NCBI GenBank assembly: GCA_963855995.1
Contig: OY979721.1
Span: forward strand, 14,673,893 to 14,737,892
Direction of reading: 5' to 3'
DNA: 64,000 nt
Origin: Muricea muricata
Lineage: Eukaryota; Cnidaria; Anthozoa; Malacalcyonacea; Plexauridae
This document shows, piece after piece, positions 14,901 to 64,000 of the stretch (the first letter of the stretch is position 1; each line of letters starts with the position of its first letter). Under the pieces are notes generated by a model. The model worked only from the letters and a program-made list of their open reading frames with translations. It was not told the DNA's origin and searched no databases. The position numbers were made by a program, and so were the translations under genes.

Positions 14901-16726
14901 TCTAGTACATATCGGTAGATAGCACAGGCGTATTTAAAAAAAAATTAAAATCAAACATTGTGTAATAAGAAGTTTGCGTTCTCTAGTTGTCATATGACTC
15001 ATTTTTGTAATAATCGTAATATTATGATGAAGATCGAATCTATGGATCAAACACTGTAATAAAAAACATATGTGGTCTTACAGAAACCAAACCTTTTCCT
15101 GTTGTTTTTCACAGGGAAGTCGAGAGAGTATTGTTAGTTACTACAGCAATGCTGGTGGGGAGGTTTACGGCAAATATCCAGTCAGTGGGGAGATCTTGTT
15201 TGGTATAAAATACGACCCCAAAATCCAGGAGTTTCAAATCCAGATTCACCAAGCACGTGATATCACTGCTGTAGATAAGAAGAGCAAGACATCAGATCCG
15301 TAAGTATACGTTAAACTCGATTCTCCTGCCTGTACCGCCCCCCCCCCAGCCCGCCTCTTTGGAGGGGTGGAAAATACAATTGAAATTTAATTTCAATATG
15401 TGCATGTAGGTACATTAAGACGTACTTACTGCCTGACAGAAGTCGAACTGGAAAGAGAAAGTCTAAAGTAAAGAAACACACAGTCAACCCAGTGTTTGAC
15501 GAAATACTTACGGTGAGTCTCTTCTACGCTGTTGATAGAATTTATCGCAGCACAACCAAAACATGTACCCTAATTTATAAATTAGATTTTATTGCTCCAT
15601 TTTATTGCTTCGTAACATGTCATTTGCAGCAAATTTGAAACTGAAAAAAAATGATAAAAATCTTTATATGACGAGGGTTCATATCTGGATGTGATGATGA
15701 ATGTTCATACTCATCGTAATACATTCATATTGCAGTACAAGATTACTTATGATGAGATTCTTCAACGAACGTTATGGCTTGCTGTCTGGAATCATGATTC
15801 ATTTGGTCATAATGACTTCTTGGGTGAAGTCTTAGTGCCCATTGATGAGTACCATCAGTCTGGTTTTAGTCTTGAAGATCCAGAGCCTCAGTGGTACGAT
15901 CTTTGTGAACGGGTGCGTTTTCTCAGAAAATATATGTTTTCCAAAAAATACATGCACACTGTTTCCATCATTGATAACAATTAGTTTAAAACTAACGCCT
16001 TTACCACATAGTCTGAGTTGTCGTCTCTTTTACAGCAAGCAGAAGACCCACAATTCTCTTATAATGGAGAGATTGTATTCGCCTTGAAATATGTTCCACC
16101 CTCAGCCTTAGTCAGCACTAAGAAAAAGAAAAAGAAGAAGAAGGCAGACGAAGAGAAAGGAGAGCTTCATATTAATATTATTGAAGCAAGTAATCTTCTG
16201 GCTAAAGATGCGAACGGTTTTTCTGATCCATTTTGTAAGAGGTACAATGTGCAATATAACATTTATCCTCACGTGTTTAGCGTGCGACATTTTGTGCACT
16301 TATTCACCACGTCATTATGTATCTATATTATTTCCACTTTGCTTCTTTCTTCAATTTGTTACTAATTAATTGAATTGTTTCTCCACATGCAGTTACCTGT
16401 TGCCAGACAAGAGTAAGAAAACCAAACAGAAAACACCAGTGGTCAAGAAAAGTCTCAATCCAAAATGGAACTACCACTTCATTTATGATAATGTCACTCA
16501 TGAAGAGCTCATGGACAGAGTCCTGGAACTGACTGTATGGGATTATGATAGAGGATCTAGTAATGAGTTTCTTGGTGGAGTACGATTGGGACTGGGCGCT
16601 GGTCTGCAGGAATGGGATGACTCGACATCAGAGGAACAAGCCGCTTGGAATAAAATGTTGAATAATCAGAATGATTGGAATCAAGTCAGCTTGACTTTGA
16701 GAGATAACATGGGCAGTCATAAGTAA
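5958..16726 (+). CDS. SYTL: Synaptotagmin-like protein (RabBD zinc finger, long acidic linker, C2A-C2B), long form
   Basis: Eleven exons: 5958-6073, 6273-6491, 7483-7824, 7915-8051, 8654-11463, 14404-14562, 15115-15299, 15410-15512, 15736-15912, 16036-16241 and 16393-16726. They join in frame to 1595 aa. Residues 1 to ~120 form a Slp/rabphilin Rab-binding domain: an amphipathic helix ([13 protein letters not shown]), four CxxC pairs (CARC, CPRC, CKVC, CTLC) and the SGAWFF motif used by Slps to bind Rab27. Exon 5 alone encodes 937 acidic, Ser-rich disordered residues. The C-terminus has the Slp lead-in [19 protein letters not shown] and two C2 domains containing [12 protein letters not shown] and SDPFCKSYLLPD. 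The family tethers Rab27/Rab8 vesicles to the plasma membrane; Drosophila bitesize has the same layout and a long linker. The start is the ATG opening the Rab-binding helix. The TAA at 16724 overlaps a possible donor (AA|GTAAGC). Confidence 0.85.
12512..12613 (+). promoter_or_regulatory. Out-of-frame upstream ORF overlapping the alternative first exon
   Basis: An ATG at 12512 opens a 33-codon frame that overlaps the ATG of the Cys-cluster exon (12553) in another frame and stops at 12611-12613. If the short transcript starts upstream of 12512, this ORF could reduce initiation at 12553. It could equally be chance. Confidence 0.3.
12553..12666 (+). CDS. Candidate alternative first exon of the SYTL gene: basic and Cys-cluster N-terminus
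   Basis: This exon lies in the 2.9-kb intron between the giant acidic exon and the exon at 14404. It encodes 38 residues: [13 protein letters not shown], a basic patch RKKKSCLKS, then [16 protein letters not shown]. Seven cysteines within 13 residues next to basic and hydrophobic residues look like an S-palmitoylated membrane anchor. The exon ends GAG|GTATAA, a donor in phase 0, exactly the phase needed by the exon at 14404. Joining it to the six downstream exons gives an uninterrupted 425-aa protein: Cys anchor, short linker, C2A, C2B. Synaptotagmin-17 (B/K protein) has a comparable Cys-cluster anchor, and Drosophila bitesize makes isoforms without the Rab-binding domain. Without splicing the frame stops one codon later. 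Transcription is not shown by sequence alone. Confidence 0.55.
13200..13413. mobile_element. MITE, 214 bp, TA-flanked (Tc1/mariner type)
   Basis: The element begins CAGGGTGAGTAAAAAGAACT and ends with the inverse (...TTTTTTTACTCACCCTG), and is flanked on both sides by TA (13198-13199 and 13414-13415). A second inner inverted pair (CTGTAATTTGA / TCAAATTACAG) strengthens the hairpin. TA target duplication and CAGGG ends are typical of non-autonomous mariner-like elements. It sits in the large SYTL intron. Confidence 0.75.
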
Positions 16727-16771
16727 GCTACTTCTGTATGTATGGGATTTGTTTTTCATTTGTTCGTTCGT

Positions 16772-17019
16772 TTTGTTTGTTTGTTTGTTTGTTTGTTTGT
16801 TTGTTTGTTTGTTTGTTTGTTTGTTTGTTTGTTTGTTTGTTTGTTTGTTTGTTTGTTTGTTTGTTTGTTTGTTTGTTTGTTTGTTTGTTTGTTTGTTTGT
16901 TTGTTTGTTTGTTTGTTTGTTTGTTTGTTTGTTTGTTTGTTTGTTTGTTTGTTTGTTTGTTTGTTTGTTTGTTTGTTGACATTGTTTGTTTGTTTGTTTG
17001 TTTGTTTGTTGTTGTTGTT
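16772..17019 (+). repeat. (TTTG)n microsatellite, about 55 copies, ending in (GTT)n
   Basis: A nearly uninterrupted tetranucleotide array starts about 45 bp after the first SYTL stop codon, is broken once by GACA near 16978, resumes, and ends as GTT repeats. The long VCLFVCLF and KQTNKQTN open frames here are translations of the repeat and not genes. Confidence 0.95.
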
Positions 17020-18458
17020 GCTTGTTGTGTTGGTTGTTATTGTTGCACAGTGATGGTGGTGATAGTAACAGTGGTGGCTAGTCGTTGGTGGTTCTGCTGT
17101 TGTCAACATCATCTATTATATTGTTGTGTGATTCACTCGCATTTATAAGAAAATGTACTCAACAACACGAGATGGGTTTGGTTTATGGATGTAGAGATAA
17201 TAGTATTCTCGTTTTACGACGAGATATTGTGGAGGACTTTTTTCTGTCATTTTTCTAACAATTTTGTATCAGATATTTTTCGTATATTTTGGTATAGAGT
17301 TTACAAGGAGTACATGTTTTTCACTATTTATTTCATATTCATTCATGTGCATTTTGGTATTTTCTTTTATGAAATTTTGTTTTGTTTTTTTTTACTTTTT
17401 CCTTTGCAAAATATTTATATTATAATTGTTCATTTTTGAACTAGAACTATAGCCTAACACATCACATCGTAGTATCATATTGCTTAATGGATAGAATGAG
17501 ATATTCATTGCAGCCCACGCTAACAGAAGAATATTCATTTGAAATATTCAACGAAATACTCAAAGTATTCAAAGTTTGTTTCTTCTCTTATATGACTGTC
17601 AGATCTCCAATCCCATGCATATATTGTATTTATATCACAAAACACATCTATTTATATGCAATGCATATTTCATTTTGTTCTTTATTAACCAATAATTGTA
17701 ACTTTTCAACGTGTAATGCAAGTTTTTGTATGTTTTATTTTTATTCGTATAGTTGAAATAAAATGTACGTTTGTGCATACTTCATCAGTTTAACGTACAT
17801 ACTCTACATACTTCATAAATTTTTAACGTACATATATAATGGCCTCTGTTGTGTCTGCCATAGAGATGCTGTCAAATATATAGACGACATGCCACAGGAG
17901 GGCACGGAATGCACTAAGCAGAAAACCAATATGGCGACTGATTACGTGTATTTGCAAGATATGCATACTGTATACAAATTAAAACCATCAGACATTCAGT
18001 ATCAATCATAACACGACAAAGTTTCTTTTTTGATTGTTTTAAAAATGAAAAATGCTCCATACGATCCCTAAGTGTTCATATACTTTGCACAAGATACATA
18101 AATCATAATGAGTGAACATACTCATCAGATATGCAAGTATGCGTGCAACTTAACTACATATGAATCAAAAGCGAGTCTTAATTGCGGTGCCTCGCAGACA
18201 ATTATCATTCTTTTAATTGTGTCTGGAATTTGAATATTTAAAATGAGTTTCTAGCTAAATCACTAAAATCGAGTCGTTATCATTTTCCCATGAGATATGT
18301 ATAAAAAATTCGAGCTTTAAAAAGGCGTGCTCTTTCGTAGTGGGTTTCTATTCGTGTTAGCGGCGAAGTTTTCGTTTGCGCGAAGCTCCGGAAACGCAGG
18401 AAAAGACTACAAGGCAAGTGATGTTCTTTGTTATATATATTTGCTGTTCATGTTTGCT
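17020..18458. other. Downstream flank of the first SYTL gene
   Basis: This AT-rich stretch lies between the TTTG array and the transposon. It probably holds 3' UTR of the first SYTL gene. The only coding-like part is the candidate alternative last exon at 17864-18011, listed separately. Confidence 0.4.
17864..18011 (+). CDS. Candidate alternative last exon of the first SYTL gene
   Basis: A possible acceptor (TCTGCCATAG, ending 17863) opens a frame reading DAVKYIDDMPQEGTECTKQK..., stopping after VYKLKPSDIQYQS. Its phase matches a possible donor formed by the last codons of C2B (CATAA|GTAAGC, about 16722). Splicing there would replace the normal stop and add about 48 residues. The peptide is not low complexity but matches no family I know. 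It could be untranslated 3' sequence. Confidence 0.25.
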
Positions 18459-18462
18459 TTAA

Positions 18463-21265
18463 GGTAGTCATTCCCCTTTAAAATGTAATTTTTGAAAAAA
18501 AAATCAAATTTTTAAAATTTATATATTTAGGTACTTTAAGTATTATACTTTAAGATAACATGGCTTGTTTTGTTGAAAAAATGCATATTTGTGAGAAAAT
18601 AGGTGTTTAAGAAGCCCTATTTAAAAAATTTCCCCATAGCAACGCCATAGCAACGCGTTTTCCTTCCAAATTTGCTTGATTATTTCACTGACAAAGCGTA
18701 TTTTTTTGAATTAAACTTTTGATGTATGTTATTTAAAGCTATGCCAGTAGATCTCTTTGTGATTGGTTCATTTTCGTAGGCATAGCAACGCGCTGACTTC
18801 TCAAACTCGAGGTCGATTTGTGGCGAGCTGTGTAAAAAATTGTGTCAGAAAATTGCTGTTTTTTTCGCGTTTATAAGTTGAAATATTGTTGTTACAGTGT
18901 AGAATTACATTCCTAAGGTTGTTCTGAGTGTAATTCAGAGTGAATAGATGGGGAACTCGAAAAATAGAGCAAGAAAAAAGAAGAAGATTCCACCGTCAAG
19001 GAAGAAGAATATAATCCAAGATGGCGGACCAAGCTACAAAGATCGTGGACCTTCTGCGAAAAAAATCAGCCAGAATACAGAATTGCTTCGTGGTATGACG
19101 GAAAACATTGATAGTACTGTAAAAGAAGGAACTATTTTAATGGACTTATCCATACTATGCAATGTATTTGACAATGTTTTGAAGTGCCCTGATTGTGGAT
19201 GTGATATAAAGTCACATGCTGACATGAAAAAGAAATGTGGATATTCCAATTACCTCGTGTTACAATGTGAAAGTATGGAGTGTGATTGGGAGTATTCTTT
19301 TAATACTTCAAAGAAACAAGGTCATTCTTATGAAGTGAATGTAAGAACAGTCTTAGCTTTCAGGGAAATTGGCAAAGGGCATAATGCCATGACTACCTTC
19401 AACAAGGTCATGAACATGCCTCCTCCACTAACCCGTCGTGTCTTCACAAAGATCCAAAATGAAAAGGTTTTGCCTGCTGTAAAGAAGTTGGCTTCTGATA
19501 GTATGATCAACAATGCCTATCAAGTCAGAGATGAAATAGCAAATGATGATGGTGAATGTGGAGTGTCGATCGACGGTACTTGGCAGAAGCGAGGATATTC
19601 GTCCCATAATGGGATTGTTACTGTGATCTCCTTGGATACGAAGAAATGCCTGGATGTGGAAGTGTTGTCAGACAAGTGCCAAGAATGCCAAAAGTGGGGG
19701 GAAAAGATTAATGACCCAGGCTACAATGCATGGAAAGCATCCCATGAATGTAAGATCAATCATGAAGGAAGCGCTGGCAGTATGGAGACAACTGGTGCCG
19801 TTCGGATTTTTAAAAGGTCGGTGGCTACGAGAGGGCTGAAATATATGGACATGCTTGGAGATGGGGACTCCTCAACCTATAACAGTATTGTTAAAAGCCA
19901 GCCATATGGAGAGGATTCTATTCCAAACAAATTAGAGTGTATCGGCCATGTTCAAAAAAGGGTTGGAAGTCGTCTACGCAAACTGAAGAGTTCGAACAAA
20001 GGAGTGAAATTGGCTGATGGGAAAGGTTTGGCTGGTAAAGGTAGGCTGACTGACAGTAAAATTGATGTGTTGCAAAACTATTATGGCTTGGCAATCAGGG
20101 AAAACCTTGATGATGTTGGTAAAATGGCCAAGTCCATAGAAGCGTCTCTTTACCATGTTGCATCAACTGCCGAGAATCCACAGCATCATCTCTGCCCAGA
20201 AGGAAAGGACAGTTGGTGTGGATATAAGAGAGACAAGGAAGAATATAAACATAAAAATGGAATACCAAGCTGTATTGTTGATATGATCAAGCCAGTATAC
20301 AAAGACCTTAGCAAATCTGAACTGCTAAGTAAATGTACTCATGGCTTGACACAAAATGTTAACGAGTGTCTGAACAGGCTCATCTGGGACAGATGCCCTA
20401 AGTCTACTTATGTTGAGCAAGAAACTGTGGCTCTTGCCACCTACCTGGCTATTCTTAAGTTTAATGATGGTGACATTTCCTTCTTGAAGTTATTTCAGGA
20501 CCTTGATGTAACTCCTGGTATTTTCACTGGTAAAGCCTCGGAGGAATGTGACAACTCGAGGATAAAACTGTCGGCAAAAAAGAGCTCAGAACAAGTGAAG
20601 AAGAGAAGAAAGATACTGAGGCACCAAAGAAAACACTATATAGACACTACAGAAGACCAAGAAGGTGTTACCTATGAAGCAGGTGCTTTCTAGAGACTAT
20701 ATAAACCAGAACAAAACATTAAAGTACTATTTTCTCAATTTCACAGTTTTCTCATTTCAGTTAATCTTTGTGACAGCATATCTTTCTGAATATTTAGTGT
20801 AAAAGGTTGAAACTTGGTATGTTTATGGCTTTTAACATTATCTAGTAACTGACCATTTTTAATTTTTCATATTTTTCATTAGTAATGTATAAATGAGGTT
20901 TAATTACCTAATTAGCTGTAAAAAATCCCTGTTTTTTCCTAATGTGCAGATTTTTTACCAAATTTTTTGCAAAAATGTTTTAAAGTGAAAATAAAGATGG
21001 TCAGTTACTAGATCATGTTATAAGCTTTCAAAATATATGTCATTTATGTTCTTCTGATTAACGGTGTGTGTGGTATCATGTTTCATGCGACGCCATTTTT
21101 TGGCTAATTAGCGGGCGGCCATATTGGATAATTAGTGTAATTAATGAGTAACCTAAAAATTTTTTTTAGATTTTGATTTTTATCACTGTGCCCCTTAAAA
21201 AAATGTTTTTGCTGAGTCTGTACCTTGTAAAATAAAAAAAAATGCTTTAAAGGGGAATGACCACC
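18463..21265 (+). mobile_element. TTAA-flanked DNA transposon, about 2.8 kb (Kolobok-like)
   Basis: The ends are inverted repeats: GGTAGTCATTCCCCTTTAAA on the left and, reverse-complemented, GGTGGTCATTCCCCTTTAAA on the right (one mismatch). Both sides are flanked by TTAA (18459-18462 and 21266-21269). TTAA duplications are used by piggyBac and Kolobok elements. The enclosed transposase does not look like piggyBac but matches the Mutator-like transposase domain found in many cnidarian and fish elements, so Kolobok-type is favoured. The open frame is intact and the ends are nearly perfect, indicating a young insertion. It lies between the two SYTL paralogues. Confidence 0.8.
18948..20693 (+). 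CDS. Transposase (Mutator-like transposase domain), single exon
   Basis: A 581-aa uninterrupted frame starts at the ATG after a TAG. The N-terminus is strongly basic (NSKNRARKKKKIPPSRKK), suiting nuclear import and DNA binding. A Cys-rich zinc-binding region follows (CPDCGCDIKSH...KKKCGY...CESMECDW, ~residues 80-110). The catalytic core has GVSIDGTWQKRGYSSHNG (first Asp, ~residue 207), a CQECQKW pair, MLGDGDSSTYNSI (second Asp, ~residue 303) and NECLNRLIWDRCPK (candidate third acidic residue, ~residue 475). These blocks are those of the Mutator-like transposase domain family. The C-terminus is basic again. There is no frameshift or premature stop, so the copy may be active. It has no functional link to the SYTL genes around it. 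Confidence 0.85.
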   Translation: MGNSKNRARKKKKIPPSRKKNIIQDGGPSYKDRGPSAKKISQNTELLRGMTENIDSTVKEGTILMDLSILCNVFDNVLKCPDCGCDIKSHADMKKKCGYSNYLVLQCESMECDWEYSFNTSKKQGHSYEVNVRTVLAFREIGKGHNAMTTFNKVMNMPPPLTRRVFTKIQNEKVLPAVKKLASDSMINNAYQVRDEIANDDGECGVSIDGTWQKRGYSSHNGIVTVISLDTKKCLDVEVLSDKCQECQKWGEKINDPGYNAWKASHECKINHEGSAGSMETTGAVRIFKRSVATRGLKYMDMLGDGDSSTYNSIVKSQPYGEDSIPNKLECIGHVQKRVGSRLRKLKSSNKGVKLADGKGLAGKGRLTDSKIDVLQNYYGLAIRENLDDVGKMAKSIEASLYHVASTAENPQHHLCPEGKDSWCGYKRDKEEYKHKNGIPSCIVDMIKPVYKDLSKSELLSKCTHGLTQNVNECLNRLIWDRCPKSTYVEQETVALATYLAILKFNDGDISFLKLFQDLDVTPGIFTGKASEECDNSRIKLSAKKSSEQVKKRRKILRHQRKHYIDTTEDQEGVTYEAGAF

Positions 21266-42764: not shown

Positions 42765-45700
42765 CTAAGTACGTCCTCCGTTGTCTTTTCTGGAAGGCTG
42801 TGATGACACTGGACTTACATCACGTGATCTGGACTCTTTTCTAGCGACATGTAATCCTTGTGTCTTGTCCGAACTCTTTCTAGTCACTCCGGTTCGCTGG
42901 TCTTGTGATATTTTCCGTTTAGTTGGTGATGTCATAGGACTGACCTCACGTGACCTTGCATCTTTCGTAGAAATTTGACTACTGGAAGTGGCGACTCCCT
43001 GTGATTCTTTTCGCCTGATTGGTGATGTTGCAGGACTAACCTCACGTGATGTTTTACGACTCACTTCTAGTCCCTGGCTGTTTGAACGACGTCTTCCTTC
43101 AGTGACGCTGGTCTTCTGTGTTTTTTTCTGCGAGTCTCGTTGTTGTTGTCGTCGTTTACGAGCTTCTTGTCGTTCTTTTTCTTTCTCTTGTGCCTTACGT
43201 TTTTCCTCCGCTTCTTCTATCTTTCGTTTTTCTTCTTCCTCGGCGAGCTTGGCTCGTTGTTCAACACACGCTCTGGCCTCTTCAATCATGTTCGTTGCCT
43301 ATAAAGATTAATTGAAAATCGATCAGGATCACACCATCAAAATTCCAGTGAAGTAGCGACTGTGTTGTATCGGATATACAAACTCGATCTGAAAGAGAGT
43401 TGCATATCTGATACAACACGAAACGACTGTTGTAGTTACTAAATACATAGCTTGTGAAGCTCTGTAGTTTTATCGGTCTATTGGCGAAGTAATTTTAACA
43501 ATACGTCTCATGTAAGACGAAAAAATCAATGTTAAAATTTGTGTGAATCAATCTGCATCACATGTGTAAAAAACACACGAAGCTTTATACTATTCTTTGC
43601 AGCTATGTTAATTAAGGTTTTCTTTTTAAAAGCGTAAACTGTGAACAATGAGCGCGTAAGGGATGATGGATTATTGTTTATCTACTGTAGGGCCTGATTG
43701 ATTGTAGGGCCTGATTTACGCTTTTGGAACGACAGCCTTTACTGAATTAGTTGTATACTAGCTTCTTTCACTACCTAATACGATAAAAACAGAATTCTAC
43801 GTATATCCTTTCAAGCAAAGAAAAATCTATAATTTCGTGTCCTTCAAAGACACCGTTAATTTTTAATCACTCGTTGTTGGATAACTTGTAAGGCCGCCCC
43901 ATTTAAGGATATTGTTTTGTTACCTAAGCACTACTTGATGAGCCATTATATTTTACTTAATGAGTTTCAACCAGACAAATCATTATCTATTTAATCCTTA
44001 TCAATCAATCAGTCTAAGAACCGGCTGCTTACAGTCGCTAGTCATTGATAACAGAGATCTTAAGGTTCTACAACGTCACCAGGTCTACGAGGAAGTCACA
44101 ATTTGAGAACACATTTATGCGCTCAGCAAAAATGCTTAATTTTTTTTCAAACCTTATAAACTGCTTGGATCAGTTAAAACGACATGATGCAAAACGCTTG
44201 ATTTTAATAGATCTTATGCCTTTCCATATCGTATTAACGATCTCGAATTTAATGCAAAGCCGTCGAAGGTATTCCTGACTAATTCCAGGGGTACAAAGTC
44301 GAGTTTATGGAACATTTGTCATTGTTTCAGCTGCCTTGAGGGCAATTACAGTCGAGTTACAGTCCTGCATGTAAATAAACACTTTATCTACATTTTGAAC
44401 TGCTATATTTTGTAGAATATCATTTGCTTTGCTCGTGAATACATGTAAAAATGAATGAAAAATGCATAGTACGGACTGTGACCTATCTTTATCTTTAAAG
44501 ATCGTCTAAAAGACTTGAAACGTTTGTTTTTTCGTGCATAAATTACTACAAACATTCATTTATGTGATGAAATTCGGATAGTACAACGGTTGCCTAGACC
44601 TGAAACTCTCTAATAACTCAAATGATCAATTGAAACACCAGGCGGAAAACGTAATCTGAATATGAATATTAATGCCCAGCAAGTAATTCTAAATTTCTGA
44701 CTCTGACTTTACTATACTGACGTCAGGCAACTCTAAGTTTGATCTTGAAATGCGTGAAAGTCTCCTCATTTCCAAATTAAAACCTATCCTTAATAATAAT
44801 ATTTCCTCCATGCCACTTAATCTATCTTAATCACTAATCCAACTCGAACTTGACCTGGTATTTTGATATACCGGTAATATCTAATCACTCAATTCTTACT
44901 TTGACATATTGCTTTTCTAACTCTTTTACTATTCGTCCCTTCTTTTTAAATTTTTACCGTTTGTAATATAATACTTAGTGATCATGTATATATAAATACA
45001 ACTTATGTTTATTCTTTATATATATAGCTCTGATGATGTTACGATGTAGCGACGAAACGTTAGCAAATTAAATTTAATATAAACTTGAATTGTTTGATAT
45101 GTATGCATTTAGAATTACTTGCTGGGCATTAATATTCACATTCAAATGATCAAACTTCAATTTAGAATGATTTGCCAAAATGTGCAAAACAGAAAGGGAT
45201 TAGTGAAGCAAAATTTAAGTCTATTCTTGACCGTCGCTGAGTCTGTAAATATTTTCAACATAATATTGTAATTGTTGTATACAGTCGTGTGTTGTTACAG
45301 TTGTAACAGTTGTATAATATAGTAGTAGTTGTGTGTAGATGAAATTTTGTAACTGTATGTCTTATTGTTCAACGACCTCTTGAAAAACAGATATGTGTAG
45401 ATTCTGAAGAGTTGTCGTTGTAAAATATTTTTAAATAAATAAATAAATAACTCAAATGATTTGGCTTACCCAAACATAAAATGTTGCTGCGCCAGCGCTC
45501 ACATCTCTGATCGTATCTAATTGATGTTCTTTCAAATAATTCGCTTCAGTGTAGTCTGCTGTAGAATTACTGACTTTTACTGGATCTAATGTAGTCACTT
45601 GTCTCTTTAGCCCTTCTTTGCCCGTCTTTCCCAGAACAGCCTGCACGTTTTTCCAGTTTTTAAGCGGTTTTTCGTTATACCCCAAAAGTAGATACGTCGC

Positions 45701-48700
45701 AATCATGACCTGGTGTACAGCTGGTGGTGGGTTCTGGTAACTACGTATCTCTGATATCGTGCTTTGTTTTAATTCCAGTATTTCCTGTCGTATTCGTTCC
45801 AGCCGTCGTAATCGATTAGCAAGCCTCTCGGCTTCACTCAGTTCTACGTTGTAGTATTGATCTAGACCAGCTTTCTTTACATCCTTAATGGCTTTTTCTA
45901 ACCGTTCCAAGTTTCTACCCTGACAAGCTTCTTTGAGGTTCTTGCCAAGCTGTACTTCGTGTCGTGTCTTTTCGGCATCTTCAATGGGCGCTTTTAAACC
46001 TAAACATAGTCATAGAAAAGATTAAAGGACATTTCAAATATGTCCAGTACTAGCAATTTTGGGTGATAGTGAGAGAGCAGCATCAGATTTGGCTTACTTG
46101 GCATTTTCGCCTGTTTAGCCAGCGTGATTGACTGGTCAAGTTTGTCCAGCTTTCTGGATTTTTGAGCAGCTTTAAGAGATGCACGGTGTTTCTTCTCTTT
46201 GTTCGCCTGAGCTTCGGCCAGAGCTTTCTTCTCCGCTTCTTGTGCCGCCTTTCGACTTTTTTCGTCTTGCGCCTAAAGTGAAAGATAAATCTACATCATA
46301 ATATACATACACTGATACACATCGTTTCTCTTGATTTGAAACTGTATTTAATGCCGTAAACTTACTCCTAATTAATGTTTTGTCTCGGATAATACGCCCA
46401 AGTACAAAGTAAAAACAATACGACGAAATTAATGTTACAGTAGTAACACAAAATGGTAAAGTCATCTTACCTGCTTAGCAGCTTCTGCGGCGAGTCTCGC
46501 AGCTTCTACAGCTTCTTCCTCGGCTTCAGCTGCATCATCTGCCATTTCCTCTGCTTGATCTGCCTCAGCATCCTCTAGTAACTCTCTTTCTGCTCGTTCT
46601 GCAAGTACGTAAATTATACAGTATAGTTGTACAGCCAAATTCATAGCTAGGATCGGGGATTGACATAACAGTAGTCTATGTTTAGATAACAGTATTAACT
46701 ATCATGCTTGCTTACGTAACAGCGTATATCATGCGTTTGCTTCAGTTAAAGTACAAGAAGTCGGATTCTAAAAAGCATACCTCTTTCAAGTCTCTCTCGT
46801 TCCTCTTCTTGGTGTCGTAACAATTCCTCCTTCTTCCATTTCTGACTTGCTTCCTGTTCTTCCCTTTTTCTTTGTTCTTCTGCCATTGCTTTTTGTAGTT
46901 CTTCTTCCCGACGTAACATTTCTTCTTCTGCCTTTAAACGATCTTCCTCTTCTTTTTTCCGAGCGTCCGCTTCTTTCCGTCTTCTTTCTGGAAAAAAGAA
47001 GAGTCGATAAACTACCTCAACCATTTCTTTAGACCTCCTATGTTTAATTCAAGAAACTAACCTTCTTCTTGCGCTTTTTCTAAATAGAAAAAATAGCTAA
47101 GTCAAGAATTGCTTGGTATTAATCAAGGTCAATGTAGATATGGTCTGGAGACTTGGCCAAAGTCTTTGTTCTGTCTTTTTGTTCGTGTTTATGCTTACGG
47201 TGAAGACAATGGGTTTTTTGGTATAATGAAGTAATTGTCCGATAGCCTTGCCTCGCCGAAGCACTCAACCGTACAGTTGAAATGTATTAATTAGCAAAAT
47301 TTCATAAGATTTGTGCACGGTGAAGCCAACTCAACATAAAATCGTTGCTCATCATAAACCCTTTGAAGTTCGCCGAGTTTCCAGACCATGTCTGCATTGA
47401 CTATGTATTAATTAAGTTCCAAATACATCACAAAATAACCACATACTTTTGTCTTTTCTAATTCTCTCATCTTCTTTTTCTTTGAGTTGTTTTTTTCGAA
47501 GTTCATTTTTTTCTTTCTCTTTTCTCAAACGATGTTCTTTAGTTTCTTTCTCTACAAGTAAAACTCTCTGCATTCAGTGACTTGATCATTTTGTGGGTAG
47601 AAACGTTACTTCATTTAAACAAACCTTTCTGTTTCAATTCTTCTCCTTTTTTGAGTTTTTCCTCTTCCTCACGAAGCTTAGCTTGTTGAGCCTTCAACAA
47701 CTCTGAATTGAAGAATTTGTGCCGCTCATGAACATGCGAAGTACATATCACAAGAAGCGACAAATCGCTGCAATACGTTGCAACAAATCGCTTTGTGTGT
47801 ACAGTCAAGTGGCAGATCACATGCGTTCACTGGAGCAATAGATCGCAGACACAAATTCTATTTCTAAACAGGAGAATTTGCCGCCCTAACTGTAACAGGT
47901 CCGCCATGTGAATCAGAGCGCGACCAGAAAGCGTTACGTATGTGGTTCTAAAACCAATTTTATATATAGCTAATTTGATACTTTAACATTGTCTGGGTTT
48001 TGAATGGTGTTGTACAGAGTAGGGCATTCGTGGGTTGATTGTGAGCAACACGGGCGAATCACTTTTTATCGGACCGGATCATGCAGAGGAAACCGGGAGG
48101 AGGGGGGGGGGGCAGTTTGTCTGCCAACTGTGTAGAAGTGGCGTCTACCTCCACGTTCTATGTCCTCCTCCTTAGCGTCTTGCTCAAGCCATTCAGCTGA
48201 AGGAATGCTACACAGTTCAACTTCTATCTCAGCGAAGCTGATGTCACTTCCTGGCACTCGACGTGTCTTCAGAAATTTTAGCCATCGTCTGTGCGAGAAG
48301 AATTCATCGTATACAGCCTGAAATAAAAATCTAGCGTCTTTTTCGCTTATAGTACCACTTTGCTTGCCATCTAACATGGCGAACTCCCATTGCAAATCCT
48401 TTACAAGAAAATACCGCCGGTCCATTTCGTTTAAAACGTCGAAAAATTCGTAAATATCGCAGGTCTCGGCAGCGCATATTTCAGAAATCGATGCCTCTGT
48501 TTGCCGAATGCTGATACCTCCTGGCCGTATTGAGGCGTGAGTGACTTGTAATTGTTCAGCATCAAGCTCTCCGGTGTTTTTTTGGTCGGCATCATTAAAT
48601 AATTTTTGTAAAACTTGCTCTTTGCCGACCAAATCGAACAAGAAAGCCATGTTCGCCATGTTATTGTTTACATTGGTTACGCGAGAATTTGCATGCAGAG

Positions 48701-48713
48701 GCCGGGTTACCAA
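42765..48713 (-). CDS. EF-hand, coiled-coil protein with dynein-type stalk and microtubule-binding domain
   Basis: Nine minus-strand exons: 48149-48713, 47625-47702, 47447-47551, an 18-nt microexon 47062-47079, 46781-46987, 46471-46598, 46098-46272, 45470-45999 and 42765-43298. All phases agree, giving 779 aa. Residues ~30-190 hold two EF-hand-like loops (DQKNTGELDAEQ, degenerate; DGKQSGTISEKD, better). Residues ~190-500 are Lys/Glu-rich coiled coil. Residues ~512-602 read EIRSYQNPPPAVHQVM, LLLG, NWKNVQAVLGK, DTIRDVSAGAATFYVW: the pattern of the dynein heavy chain microtubule-binding tip (NPP..V..VM, LLG, W.....LG, VS.AA...W). The flanking helices would be stalk CC1 and CC2. No AAA motor is present. 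The tail has repeated SREVSP motifs. Likely a microtubule or ciliary protein; no named orthologue recalled. The start could instead be the ATG at 48657-48659. Confidence 0.75.
43360..43560 (+). repeat. Dispersed foldback repeat, copy A
   Basis: It starts with the inverted pair GTGTTGTATCGGATATACAA ... ATATCTGATACAACAC, followed by TAGCTTGTGAAGCTCT, GCGAAGTAATTTT and TAAGACGA blocks. A diverged copy in the same orientation is at 49841-50045. It lies in the last intron of the EF-hand/stalk gene. Confidence 0.75.
44663..45138. mobile_element. Foldback element with 32-bp inverted ends
   Basis: TGAATATTAATGCCCAGCAA(GTAATTCTAAAT) at 44663-44694 recurs as an exact complement at 45107-45138. The interior is AT-rich and non-coding. 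It lies in the last intron of the EF-hand/stalk gene. No target duplication was clear. Confidence 0.65.
48102..48112. repeat. Poly-G run beside the first donor of the EF-hand gene
   Basis: A G-only run lies just downstream of the exon 1 donor. Comparable runs occur at about 4257, 5035-5050 and 5184-5200. Such tracts are error-prone in sequencing. Confidence 0.8.
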
Positions 48714-50642: not shown

Positions 50643-52254
50643 ATGATAAAACGCAGATTTTTCACGTTTGTTTTTGCACTGATTGCATTGGTTGTTTTGG
50701 AATATGTAGCGTGTGCTGAACGTCCAAGTAAGTCACAAAGACAACGCTTTTTTCAATTGGCCTTTTAAATTTGTTGCTATTCCTGTTTACTTTGTCGGTG
50801 TTAACGTTTTACTATTAGTATTGTTTACAATTCACTATTTTTTCGTCGTTAGCTTTACACGTTATCCTATCTCTTTAGTCACAAACTTTCTAGAGAAAGG
50901 AGAACCATTTAAGCAAAATACATTAAACGCAAGCGACTACGGTGTGCTTGGTGACGGTTTGACAGACGATTCTGACGCAATGCAAGCATTCATCGACAAG
51001 GCTCGGCTTACAAATAAAATCGCCTTCTTCCCTTCTGGTGAGTACCTAATCCAGCAAAACATTTGGATCAATGGAACGGTCACCATTCACGGCTCTGTCT
51101 CGGGGATGACGATTTTCAAAGCCCCGCGCTTAAAAATCATGCAGATATACATTGGAAACAAGAAACATGGCTTGAAAGGGCTAACAATCGTTCATATTTT
51201 CTTTGACGGGGTTAGGTTGCAATTTTCAAGCAAGAAATACAAGCACAACTTTCGTTTGGCAAATTGTGTGTTTTTTAACAGTCGTGCACCTTTGTTACCT
51301 ATTCCTAAGAAACACAACAAAGCGTTTGTAGATTGGCAGAGAGTTTCAAATGGTTCGATAAGCAACGTCGTTGTACTGCGTTGTAAGGCAACACACGGTC
51401 TGGGCTTTACCTTTTATAAGACAAAACACGTACGGTTAGAGAGCAGCATTGTCGGGCTTGATTTCAATAGCTTAGACTGGTTAGCCACTCAGTATCGTGG
51501 GATAAACTCATGGGACAGATTGGTTGAAAAACTTCGATTCATCAAGACACGCTATAAGATCAACTCAGATCAAGGCCACTTTCAGTCCTCCTTATACGGG
51601 AACCGTGACGACATGCTTACCATAAAAGGAAACATTTTCAATGGTAGTCCTTATACAACCGGTTTTATCGATCACGCGATTTACCTCAAAGGCTTTGAAG
51701 GCCTGTACGTTTTAGGGAACTATGCCCGTGGTTGGCCGAACTCTCCATGGGGAGGACTGAAAATGAGAAACGGGGAGGATTTGGTCGTCGCTCGAAATTA
51801 TCTGGTGGATACTGGTATATTACTCTACACCCATAACGAAATCACTTTTGATCCTTTGTACCAAGGACTGAGCAATGTGTATGTTTATGGAAATCATTTG
51901 GTTGAACTAAGAAATATTGGTAAATGGGGTACAGGCATCAGCTATTACGAACCACACTGGACTGGCGTAGATACCAACATCAATTTTTGTCATAATATAT
52001 TTGAGATTTCAAATTTGAATCTCACGTCTCCACCGATTGCAATCCACGTCTCTAACGGTGACAAGGACGAGCATCACGTGTTCAAAGATAATGTGTATTT
52101 TGGCACGCAGGTCACGGCAAAATTGTTTGGCAATGGTGAAACAGAGTATGAAAATGGTACATGCGAACAAAGTATGATATCACCATACCAGAATATCCGG
52201 ATTCCAAATCTCATCATACCAACCTACTGCAGTCAAGGTGGTGGTTGCAAGTAG
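50643..52254 (+). CDS. Secreted right-handed beta-helix protein (pectate lyase superfamily 3 / GH28-like)
   Basis: Two coding exons, 50643-50727 and 50879-52254, give 486 aa. A 5' UTR intron probably precedes them (donor near 50561, acceptor CATTTTGCAG at ~50633). Exon 1 encodes a signal peptide: MIKRR, a hydrophobic run FFTFVFALIALVVL, then YVACA as cleavage region. Mature protein starts near ERPS. Residues ~45-70 read ASDYGVLGDGLTDDSDAMQAF, the N-terminal signature (D-Y/F-G-a-x-G-D-G-x-T-D-D) of pectate-lyase-3/GH28 beta-helix enzymes. The rest has repeated V/I-N strands typical of beta-helix coils and a Cys-containing C-terminus. The fold is confident; substrate and catalytic residues are not. 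Nearly all of the protein is in one exon and the family is chiefly microbial, plant and fungal, so ancient lateral transfer is possible. An extracellular polysaccharide is the likely target. Confidence 0.8.
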
Positions 52255-58848: not shown

Positions 58849-59090
58849 GTGGGATTATGAATTAATTGTCTGTAGTGGTGTCTGACAACAAATTTTTAGG
58901 GACCATTCATTATTTATGGCCGGGGGTGGGCTGGTAATATCTATCATAAACCAAAAAGAAACTTCTTGATCCTCTTATTTAAAAAACAAAAAATCCATGA
59001 TCCCCCTTTTTATGAAAATACAATATATATTAAACTAGCCCGCATTTCGTATTTACATTTATAATAAATAGCAAAAATTTTGAAAAAAAA
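58849..59090. other. Spacer before the palindrome array
   Basis: This is presumed intron of the CD73-like gene. No feature was recognised apart from an A-rich approach to the array. Confidence 0.4.
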
Positions 59091-59111
59091 TATTGGGAAA
59101 AAGTTTTTGGA

Positions 59112-59331
59112 GAGAATTGATTAGTATGCCCAGCCATCTTGACCACCAGACAACAATAAGCAATCCCTGGCGAAAATTTGTTCATGAAGTCATGAACTTT
59201 CATGGTCTGTTCATTTTCATGAACGTTCATGAACAGACCATGAAAGTTCATGACTTCATGAACAAATTTTCGCCAGGGATTGCTTATCGTTGTCTGGTGG
59301 TCAAGATGGCTGGGCATACTAATTAATTCTC
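59112..59331. repeat. Palindrome copy 1
   Basis: Arms 59112-59214 and 59229-59331 (103 bp) around a 14-nt spacer, with only two or so mismatches. The arms contain GCCCAGCCATCTTGACCACC and GGCGAAAATTTGTTCATGAA. Confidence 0.95.
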
Positions 59332-59630
59332 CCCTGAAATTCAAACTTTTGATGATTTTCTCACAATCGTAAAGGGGCACAATTTTTTCCCAAATTTTTT
59401 TTCAAAATTTTCCCCAATATTTTTGTCAATTTTTTTTTCAAAATTTTTTTCCCAAATTTTTTGTCAAAATTTTTTCCCAAATTTTTTTGAAATTCTTTTC
59501 CCAAAATTTTTTCCCAAATTTTTTTTCAAAATTTTTTCCCAAATTTTTTTCAAAATTTTTCCCAAATTTTTTTTCAAAATTTTTCCCAAATTTTTCTCAA
59601 ATTTTTTGGTCAAAGATTTTTGTCAAATTT

Positions 59631-59667
<37 letters not shown>

Positions 59668-60311
59668 TCTCATTTTTTTTTTCAAAATTTTTTTCCAAAT
59701 TTTTTTTCAAAATTTTTCCCAATTTTTTTTTGAAAAAAAAATGGGGAAAAAATTTGATAAAAATATTTTGACCAATAAAATTGGAGAAAAATTTGGGAAA
59801 AAATTTTAGAAAAAATCTTGAAAAAAAATTGACAAAAATGTTGGGAAAAATTTTGAAAAAAAATTTGAGAAAAAGTTTTGAAAAAAAATTTGGGGAAAAA
59901 ATTTTGAAAAAAAATTTAAGAAAAAATTTAAAAAAAAAAATTTGGGAATAAATTTTGATAAAAAATTTTGGAAAAAATCTTGAAAAAAAATTGACAAAAA
60001 TATTGGGAAAAAATTTTGAAGAAAAATGGGAAATTTTGAAAAAAAAAATTGGGAAAAAATTTTGAAAAAAAATTGACAAAAATATTGGGAAAAAATTTTG
60101 AAAAAAAATTTGAGAAAAAGTCTTGAAAAAAAATTTGGGAAAAAATTTAAAAAAAAAATTTGGGAATAAATTTTGATAAAAAATTTTGGAAAAAATCTTG
60201 AAAAAAAATTGACAAAAATATTGGGAAAAAATTTTGAAGAAAAATGGGAAATTTTGAAAAAAAAAATTGGGCAAAAATTTTGAAAAAAAATATTGGGAAA
60301 AAGTTTTTGGA

Positions 60312-60531
60312 GAGAATTGATTAGTATGCCCAGCCATCTTGACCACCAGACAACGATAAGCAATCCCTGGCGAAAATTTGTTCATGAAGTCATGAACTTT
60401 CATGGTCTGTTCATTTTCATGAACGTTCATGAACAGACCATGAAAGTTCATGACTTCATGAACAAATTTTCGCCAGGGATTGCTTATCGTTGTCTGGTGG
60501 TCAAGATGGCTGGGCATACTAATCAATTCTC
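60312..60531. repeat. Palindrome copy 2
   Basis: Arms 60312-60414 and 60429-60531; the arms appear fully complementary. The spacer is the same as in copy 1. Confidence 0.95.
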
Positions 60532-61149
60532 CCCTGAAATTCAAACTTTTGATGATTTTCTCACAATCGTAAAGGGGCACAATTTTTTCCCAGATTTTTT
60601 TTCAAAATTTTCCCCAATATTTTTGTCAATTTTTTTTTTTCAAAATTTTTTTCCCAAATTTTTTGTCAAAATTTTTTCCCAAATTTTTTTGAAATTCTTT
60701 TCCCAAAATTTTTTCCTATTTTTTTTCAAAATTTTTTCCCAAATTTTTTTTCAAAATTTTTCCCAATATTTTTTCCCAAATTTTTTTTCAAAATTTTTTC
60801 CCAAATTTTTTTTCAAAATTTTTTCCAAAATTTTTTGGCAAAAAATTTTTGACCAATAAAATTGGAGAAAAATTTGGGAAAAAATTTTGGAAAAAATCTT
60901 GAAAAAAAATTGACAAAAATATTGGGAAAAAATTTTGAAAAAAAATTTGAGAAAAAGTCTTGAAAAAAAATTTGGGAAAAAATTTAAAAAAAAAAATTTG
61001 GGAATAAATTTTGATAAAAAATTTTGAAAAAAATCTTGAAAAAAAATTGACAAAAATATTGGGAAAAAATTTTGGAGAAAAATGGGAAATTTTGAAAAAA
61101 AAAATTGGGCAAAAATTTTGAAAAAAAATATTGGGAAAAAGTTCTTGGA

Positions 61150-61369
61150 GAGAATTGATTAGTATGCCCAGCCATCTTGACCACCAGACAACGATAAGCA
61201 ATCCCTGGCGAAAATTTGTTCATGAAGTCATGAACTTTCATGGTCTGTTCATTTTCATGAACGTTCATGAACAGACCATGAAAGTTCATGACTTCATGAA
61301 CAAATTTTCGCCAGGGATTGCTTATCGTTGTCTGGTGGTCAAGATGGCTGGGCATATTAATCAATTCTC
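61150..61369. repeat. Palindrome copy 3
   Basis: Arms 61150-61252 and 61267-61369, with one mismatch (ATATTAATC versus GATTAGTAT near the ends). Confidence 0.95.
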
Positions 61370-62808
61370 CCCTGAAATTCAAACTTTTGATGATTTTCTC
61401 ACAATCGTAAAGGGGCACAATTTTTTCCCAAATTTTTTTTTTCAAAATTTTCCCCAATATTTTTGTCAATTTTTTTTTCAAAATTTTTTTCCCAAATTTT
61501 TTGTCAAAATTTTTTCCCAAATTTTTTTGAAATTCTTTTCCCAAAATTTTTTCCTATTTTTTTCAAAATTTTTTCCCAAATTTTTTTTCAAAATTTTTCC
61601 CAATATTTTTTCCCAAATTTTTTTTCAAAATTTTTTCCCAAATTTTTTTTCAAAATTTTTCCCAATATTTTTTCCCAAATTTTTTTTCAAGATTTTTTCC
61701 AAAATTTTTTCCAAAATTTTTTTCAAAATTTTTCCCCAAATTTTTCTCAAATTTTTTGGTCAAAGATTTTTTGTCAAATTTTTTCCCCATTTTTTTTTCA
61801 AAATTTTTTTCCAAATTTTTTTTCAAAATTTTCCCCAATATTTTTGTCAATTTTTTTTTCAAAATTTTTTTCCCAAATTTTTTGTCAAAATTTTTTCCCA
61901 AATTTTTTTGAAATTCTTTTCCCAAAATTTTTTCCTATTTTTTTCAAAATTTTTTCCCAAATTTTTTTTCAAAATTTTTCCCAATATTTTTTCCCAAATT
62001 TTTTTTCAAAATTTTTTCCCAAATTTTTTTTCAAAATTTTTCCCAATATTTTTTCCCAAATTTTTTTTCAAGATTTTTTCCAAAATTTTTTCCAAAATTT
62101 TTTTCAAAATTTTTCCCCAAATTTTTCTCAAATTTTTTGGTCAAAGATTTTTTGTCAAATTTTTTCCCCATTTTTTTTTCAAAATTTTTTTCCAAATTTT
62201 TTTTCAAAATTTTTCCCAATTTTTTTTTGAAAAAAAAATGGGGAAAAAATTTGATAAAAAATTTTTGACCAATAAAATTGGAGAAAAATTTGGGAAAAAA
62301 TTTTAGAAAAAATCTTGAAAAAAAATTGACAAAAATGTTGGGAAAAATTTTGAAAAAAAATTTGAGAAAAAGTTTTGAAAAAAAATTTGGGGAAAAAATT
62401 TTGAAAAAAAATTTGGGGAAAAATTTAAAAAAAAAATTTGGGAATAAATTTTGATAAAAAATTTTGGAAAAAATCTTGAAAAAAAATTGACAAAAATATT
62501 GGGAAAAAATTTTGAAGAAAAATGGGAAATTTTGAAAAAAAAAATTGGGCAAAAATTTTGAAAAAAAATTGACAAAAATATTGGGAAAAAATTTTGAAAA
62601 AAAATTTGAGAAAAAGTCTTGAAAAAAAATTTGGGAAAAAATTTAAAAAAAAAATTTGGGAATAAATTTTGATAAAAAATTTTGGAAAAAATCTTGAAAA
62701 AAAATTGACAAAAATATTGGGAAAAAATTTTGAAGAAAAATGGGAAATTTTGAAAAAAAAAAATTGGGCAAAAATTTTGAAAAAAAATATTGGGAAAAAG
62801 TTTTTGGA

Positions 62809-63028
62809 GAGAATTGATTAGTATGCCCAGCCATCTTGACCACCAGACAACGATAAGCAATCCCTGGCGAAAATTTGTTCATGAAGTCATGAACTTTCAT
62901 GGTCTGTTCATTTTCATGAACGTTCATGAACAGACCATGAAAGTTCATGACTTCATGAACAAATTTTCGCCAGGGATTGCTTATCGTTGTCTGGTGGTCA
63001 AGATGGCTGGGCATACTAATCAATTCTC
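62809..63028. repeat. Palindrome copy 4
   Basis: Arms 62809-62911 and 62926-63028; the arms appear fully complementary. Confidence 0.95.
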
Positions 63029-63720
63029 CCCTGAAATTCAAACTTTTGATGATTTTCTCACAATCGTAAAGGGGCACAATTTTTTCCCAAATTTTTTTTT
63101 CAAAATTTTCCCCAATATTTTTTCCCAAATTTTTTTTCAAAATTTTTTCCCAAATTTTTTTTCAAAATTTTTCCCAATATTTTTTCCCAAATTTTTTTTC
63201 AAGATTTTTTCCAAAATTTTTTCCAAAATTTTTTTCAAAATTTTTCCCCAAATTTTTCTCAAATTTTTTGGTCAAAGATTTTTTGTCAAATTTTTTCCCC
63301 ATTTTTTTTTCAAAATTTTTTTCCAAATTTTTTTTCAAAATTTTTCCCAATTTTTTTTGGAAAAAAAAATGGGGAAAAAATTTGATAAAAAATTTTTGAC
63401 CAATAAAATTGGAGAAAAATTTGGGAAAAAATTTTAGAAAAAATCTTGAAAAAAAATTGACAAAAATATTGGGAAAAATTTTGAAAAAAAATTTGAGAAA
63501 AAGTCTTGAAAAAAAATTTGGGGAAAAAATTTTGAAAAAAAATTTGGGGAAAAATTTAAAAAAAAAATTTGGGAATAAATTTTGATAAAAAATTTTGGAA
63601 AAAATCTTGAAAAAAAATTGACAAAAATATTGGGAAAAAATTTTGAAGAAAAATGGGAAATTTTGAAAAAAAAAATTGGGAAAAAATTTTGAAAAAAAAT
63701 TTTGGGAAAAAGTTTTTGGA

Positions 63721-63940
63721 GAGAATTGATTAGTATGCCCAGCCATCTTGACCATCAGACAACGATAAGCAATCCCTGGCGAAAATTTGTTCATGAAGTC
63801 ATGAACTTTCATGGTCTGTTCATTTTCATGACCGTTCATGAACAGACCATGAAAGTTCATGACTTCATGAACAAATTTTCGCCAGGGAATGCTTATCGTT
63901 GTCTGGTGGTCAAGATGGCTGGGCATACTAATCAATTCTC
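63721..63940. repeat. Palindrome copy 5
   Basis: Arms 63721-63823 and 63838-63940 with a few mismatches (GACCATCAG, GGGAATGC) and one change in the spacer. It is the most diverged copy. Confidence 0.95.
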
Positions 63941-64000
63941 CCCTGAAATTCAAACTTTTGATGATTTTCTCACAATCGTAAAGGGGCACAATTTTTTCCC

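Follow-up and report, generated by a model that had tools for sequence, protein, structure and literature searches.

The window analysed here is a 64,000-nt stretch of the Muricea muricata genome. On its minus strand, positions 48659-42765 hold a predicted gene of nine coding exons that encodes a protein of 761 aa (Table 1). The first in-frame ATG lies at 48659 and the stop codon ends at 42765; the span of 42765-48713 given in an earlier note on this DNA was correct except at the 5' end. All eight introns are GT-AG, and the reading frame is unbroken. Exon junctions were picked by eye and then checked by script for splice sites and frame; the 18-nt exon 4 in particular is a tentative prediction. 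Intron 8, at approximately 2.2 kb, is the longest of the gene, and exon 8 is open throughout, without interruption.

Table 1. Predicted coding exons of the gene, with window positions and encoded features.
Feature	Positions	Strand	Content
Exon 1	48149..48659	-	Start codon and EF-hand-like N-terminal domain, aa 1-170
Exon 2	47702-47625	-	E/K/R-rich rod
Exon 3	47551-47447	-	E/K/R-rich rod
Exon 4	47079-47062	-	E/K/R-rich rod, 18 nt
Exon 5	46987-46781	-	E/K/R-rich rod
Exon 6	46598-46471	-	E/K/R-rich rod
Exons 2-6 together	46471..47702	-	aa 171-349; putative helix, from composition; splice sites and frame check
Exon 7	46098..46272	-	Last part of charged rod, aa 350-407
Exon 8	45470..45999	-	Helices ~aa 410-450, CC1-like helix ~aa 458-493, dynein-type tip ~aa 486-584
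Exon 9	42765..43298	-	Putative CC2-like return helix aa 585-~640, basic tail aa 641-761, stop

Sequence comparisons confirmed that part of the predicted protein is homologous to the microtubule-binding tip of dynein heavy chains (DHCs); the homologous part covers aa ~486-584 and runs across a splice junction. The earlier recognition of a dynein tip was borne out by phmmer against the PDB, by a profile of the genome's own DHCs and by hhalign. Its numbering (aa 512-602) was shifted by about 18 residues, with SYQNPP at aa 494-499 and VSAGAATFYVW ending at aa 584. Searched against 177,635 PDB sequences, exon 8 matched dynein microtubule-binding domain (MTBD) structures, the best being yeast constructs (phmmer E 1.2e-5); 33 sequences were recovered at E up to 1, at least one of them not a dynein (2mh8_A, E 0.94). 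With the first, spliced-on part of exon 9 included, the match to the yeast dynein tip structures improved to E 4.8e-6, and in both phmmer and hhalign the dynein alignment extended beyond the exon 8/9 junction, past aa 585. The spliced region matched 16 PDB sequences at E <= 0.01, 13 of which are named dynein. The remaining three were also counted as dynein: 8glv_Cn and 9fqr_Hl because they have DHC length and match a DHC stalk of this genome (123-125 bits over ~280 residues), and 6rzb, presumably the mouse dynein MTBD of PMC6629372 (mouse cytoplasmic dynein 1).

The genome's own profile, which is independent of the PDB, was built from seven DHC stalks out of about 16 DHC clusters, with pieces roughly joined and splicing inexact; loci L009, L011 and L012, where no piece with the tip motif was found, were left out. 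Among 1536 targets (1535 six-frame window ORFs of at least 25 aa plus the spliced protein), exon 8 ranked first (E 4.4e-10, 36.1 bits) and the spliced protein second (E 3e-9), while the next-best window ORF had an E of 1.8. None of 5000 shuffles reached the score of the exon (top shuffle 12.0 bits vs 36.4), and the reversed sequence had no match to the profile at E up to 100. With hhalign, aa 408-660 aligned to dynein at 96.3% across 116 columns. Other segments of the same protein stayed below 1% (aa 1-170, 0.60%; aa 171-407, 0.06%; aa 585-761, 0.08%), as did the reversed region (0.13%) and the highest-scoring shuffle out of 60 (0.99%). In phmmer comparisons of the tip region with ORFs of eight DHC loci, seven gave E-values between 7.5e-8 and 0.0046 (three of them overlapping) and the eighth, L006, gave 0.15. 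Identity between the tip and the DHC sequences examined was 22-27%.

Of six tip-bearing constructs, two reached 13.3 and 14.4 bits with the Pfam stalk model MT (PF12777), below its cut-off of 24 bits; the model was absent from the matches listed for the other four (761, 238, 176 and 111 aa). It was not the top Pfam match for exon 8, where unrelated families ranked above it; Fusello_VP2_Capsid (E 0.0025) outranked MT (E 0.042), both being under the cut-off. Exon 8 was also not among the matches listed in a genome scan with PF12777 at E <= 0.001. We read the weak score as suggesting a divergent member of the MTBD fold and not the absence of the fold.

Motor domains were sought in the 453-Mb assembly (74 contigs), with only the best candidates scored and all counts being lower bounds. 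AAA_9 matched at least 56 places, which we grouped into about 16 clusters. None of the listed matches lies within 1.2 Mb of the gene; the closest one listed on the contig ends at C6:13,457,423, about 1.26 Mb from exon 8. A comparison of the two genome scans placed all 17 listed Pfam MT places within 5.5 kb of an AAA_9 place. A Pfam scan of the spliced 761-aa protein yielded no AAA family, and with no listed AAA_9 in the vicinity, the earlier claim that an AAA ring is lacking held up. Because the exon phases fit those of the neighbouring exons and the nearest listed AAA_9 is so distant, exon 8 does not appear to belong to a dynein gene. We do not assign the 761-aa protein to the dynein heavy chain family. 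No second copy or paralogue of exon 8 was found in the genome: of seven candidates scored, two matched at E <= 10, namely exon 8 itself and a DNAH6-like dynein (E 0.0244). One scan each of a viral and a prokaryote contig collection found no relatives (32 and 131 pattern matches, respectively, none confirmed), as expected for such collections. The DNAH6-like dynein (L003, G000:C10:9668259-9672122) carries stalk and tip in a single 313-aa open frame, unlike the other listed dynein places, which match the stalk model in shorter pieces only.

The structure of exon 8 alone was predicted with AlphaFold. The model contains two helices, spanning aa 410-435 and aa 438-450, and a third of 36 residues (aa 458-493) that leads into the tip, with a pLDDT of ~90 dropping to ~50 at its end and with heptad-like hydrophobic positions visible by eye. 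In total, 42 of 176 residues reached pLDDT >= 90, and the model is confident only in the helices ahead of the tip; ten-residue blocks from residue 81 onward, which cover the tip, had pLDDT values of 23-51. Later helices (pLDDT < 50) start at the PPP and NW motifs, matching expectation for H1 and H2. A dynein stalk arm has about 100 residues, compared to 36 for the helix running into the tip in this exon-8-only model. Of the antiparallel stalk proposed earlier, a predicted helix ahead of the tip is supported; the stalk looks short and the antiparallel pairing is putative. A Foldseek search of the PDB with this model, whose tip is poorly modelled, gave 119 matches at E <= 10, none of them at E <= 0.001, and no dynein was named among the best 50 of the 119. 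We gave this result little weight because the tip was not modelled confidently.

At the N-terminus, EF-hand_7 scored 28.9 bits for a 198-aa frame with exon 1 and 21.8 bits for the whole protein (cut-off 30). A loop pattern requiring Gly at position 6, which would miss loops without it, detected DQKNTGELDAEQ (aa 25-36) and DGKQSGTISEKD (aa 97-108). Canonical EF-hand Ca2+ ligands occupy loop positions 1, 3, 5 and 12; both loops are non-canonical, carrying Lys as the third residue and Gln or Asp as the twelfth. Matches in the PDB were weak and to hippocalcin- and neurocalcin-type sensors (six sequences at E <= 1, best 0.0099). The AlphaFold model of exon 1 had a mean pLDDT of 47.8. Of the Ca2+-regulating EF-hands that had been suggested for this protein, the EF-hand-like N-terminus stands, but Ca2+ regulation is not indicated and appears doubtful, because both loops are non-canonical and the Pfam EF-hand scores are under the cut-off.

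Charged residues make up 64% of aa 171-349, whereas the tail (aa 641-761) consists of 36% Ser/Thr/Pro and has a net charge of +18. A scan of the window with the X-box consensus (up to two mismatches) gave 13 matches vs 13.03 expected, with none closer than 2 kb to position 48660, and a looser form gave 273 vs 295.1 expected over the window as a whole, which provides no ciliary-promoter support. A ciliary location is plausible but unsupported.

We compared the tip with the residues by which dynein contacts tubulin. Six salt-bridge residues of yeast dynein are named in PMC7042235 (K3117, E3122, R3124, R3152, R3159 and R3201), where K3116 and K3204 were also mutated. According to PMC6629372, tubulin contacts are made by H1, H3 and H6, and some axonemal dyneins carry a flap between H2 and H3 (13 residues in DNAH7). 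The charge is kept at four of these eight yeast positions, including three of the six salt-bridge positions (K3116 = K485, E3122 = E491, R3124 = R493, R3152 = K524), and lost at the other four (K3117 to Gln, R3159 to Gly, R3201 to Asp, which is D573, and K3204 to Ala). Seven aligned DHCs of this genome keep 4, 4, 4, 2, 2, 1 and 1 of the eight charges, with four of the seven having gaps at one or two of the positions.

The best explanation, and one that we consider probable, would be a motor-less protein that binds microtubules passively and perhaps cross-links them. Its EF-hand-like N-terminus would probably serve to dock other proteins and not act as a Ca2+ switch. The charged rod (aa 171-407) may act as a spacer, of ~35 nm if it forms a single continuous helix, and would lead to a short antiparallel coiled coil with the dynein-type tip at its end, followed by the basic Ser/Thr/Pro-rich tail. 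Like that of dynein, this tip would bind at the intradimer site between alpha- and beta-tubulin. Binding would be passive because there is no AAA ring to shift the register of the coiled coil by ATP hydrolysis, and the protein would act as a clamp or spacer, or would cross-link microtubules to a partner held by the N-terminus. Speculatively, strain or tail phosphorylation might modulate binding. Passive microtubule binding is favoured by tip homology across three methods, by a count of contact charges equal to the best of the seven aligned DHCs, by the helix predicted to enter the tip and the basic tail, and by the lack of a nearby listed AAA_9 and of a second exon 8 copy in the search made. 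Against it count the loss of charge at half of the contact positions, a Pfam MT score under the cut-off and surpassed by unrelated sub-threshold families, and a low-confidence tip model with no dynein among the best 50 Foldseek matches. The fuller proposal of a distinct motor-less family, in which the dynein tip clamps microtubules passively, responds to strain and is mounted on a rigid helical spacer, is more tentative, and we hold it at somewhat below even chances.

Known systems resemble the protein in part. With the dynein heavy chain stalk and MTBD (yeast 6kio, 6kjn and 6kjo; mouse cytoplasmic dynein 1, 3j1t), it shares the tip pattern E-I-R-S..NPP..V..VM.A...LG..NW and an alignment that continues into the return helix past ..FYVW. 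It differs in having no AAA ring, linker or tail of the dynein type, an apparently shorter stalk, EF-hand and rod surroundings, and alterations at four of the eight tubulin-contact positions considered. DNHD1 (dynein heavy chain domain-containing protein 1) is likewise a non-canonical DHC relative, but a large, DHC-derived one, whereas the 761-aa protein has only the portion comprising tip and stalk. Microtubule-associated proteins of the MAP7 and caldesmon-like type have long E/K/R-rich helices and basic Ser/Pro-rich regions and are not known to carry a dynein-type tip. The 761-aa protein resembles them in its putatively helical E/K/R-rich rod and its basic tail.

Whether the gene belongs to an old family that is widespread in ciliated eukaryotes, perhaps annotated simply as EF-hand or coiled-coil, or stems from a recent domain capture appears evenly balanced to us; an old family is compatible with a passive microtubule binder. 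The low identity of the tip to the DHCs compared and the lack of a close genome copy as a possible recent donor point to an old family. However, the PDB chains at E <= 0.01 include no non-dynein relative, although 8glv, 8j07 and 9fqr, which we take to be axoneme assemblies, were covered, and among the open-licence PubMed Central articles listed in targeted searches, none describes, in its title or abstract opening, an EF-hand protein that carries a dynein tip. Similar proteins may well exist unnamed in eukaryotic databases.

It is unlikely, though worth weighing, that the tip fold was retained while tubulin binding was lost, with the domain now capping a coiled coil and mediating protein-protein interactions. 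The missing basic residues of H6 (R3201 and K3204), the Gly at R3159 and the weak Pfam score would fit such a role, but this tip keeps at least as many contact charges as any of the seven DHCs aligned from this genome. We reject as very improbable that exon 8, as a stray exon, an exon of a separate dynein or a piece of a DHC pseudogene, was misjoined to an EF-hand/coiled-coil gene: the length of intron 8 would allow it, but the exon is fully open, its phases fit on both sides, exon 9 carries the dynein alignment onward and no AAA_9 is listed within 1.2 Mb. A resemblance by chance or through coiled coil alone is rejected as the least credible reading, since the match falls in the globular tip and the charged rod segments, shuffles and reversed sequence gave none, although coiled-coil proteins do yield spurious matches and unrelated families equal the sub-threshold Pfam score.

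The dynein tip is normally viewed as coupled to a motor, whose stalk helices set its affinity as they slide. If a distinct motor-less family indeed exists, the dynein microtubule-binding domain would be a portable module not exclusive to dynein motors. A natural motor-free tip would reveal the behaviour of the fold itself and offer a system for studying affinity and strain sensing. The protein might also be a cross-linker overlooked in inventories of cilia and cytoskeleton, with a profile score under the usual cut-off.

The window contains several other features. Neighbouring frames encode a C2 domain, a rhodopsin-type receptor and a major-facilitator transporter, as is consistent with an animal genome; by eye, C2-like frames adjoin a long simple repeat at 16628-17148 that reads TNKQ and CLFV in overlapping frames. 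A 581-aa Mutator-like transposase frame without internal stop lies at 18948-20693 on the plus strand (PF20700, E 1.4e-70). A single 514-aa open frame on the plus strand at 50710-52254 is pectate-lyase-like (PF12708, E 6.9e-16). Positions 59071-63979 hold an array with a period of ~12-13 bases that translates as FFK/FFS-rich frames. Five 300-base copies in it, starting at 59071, 60271, 61109, 62768 and 63680, are 98-100% identical to the reference copy, and the array also contains many inverted copies.
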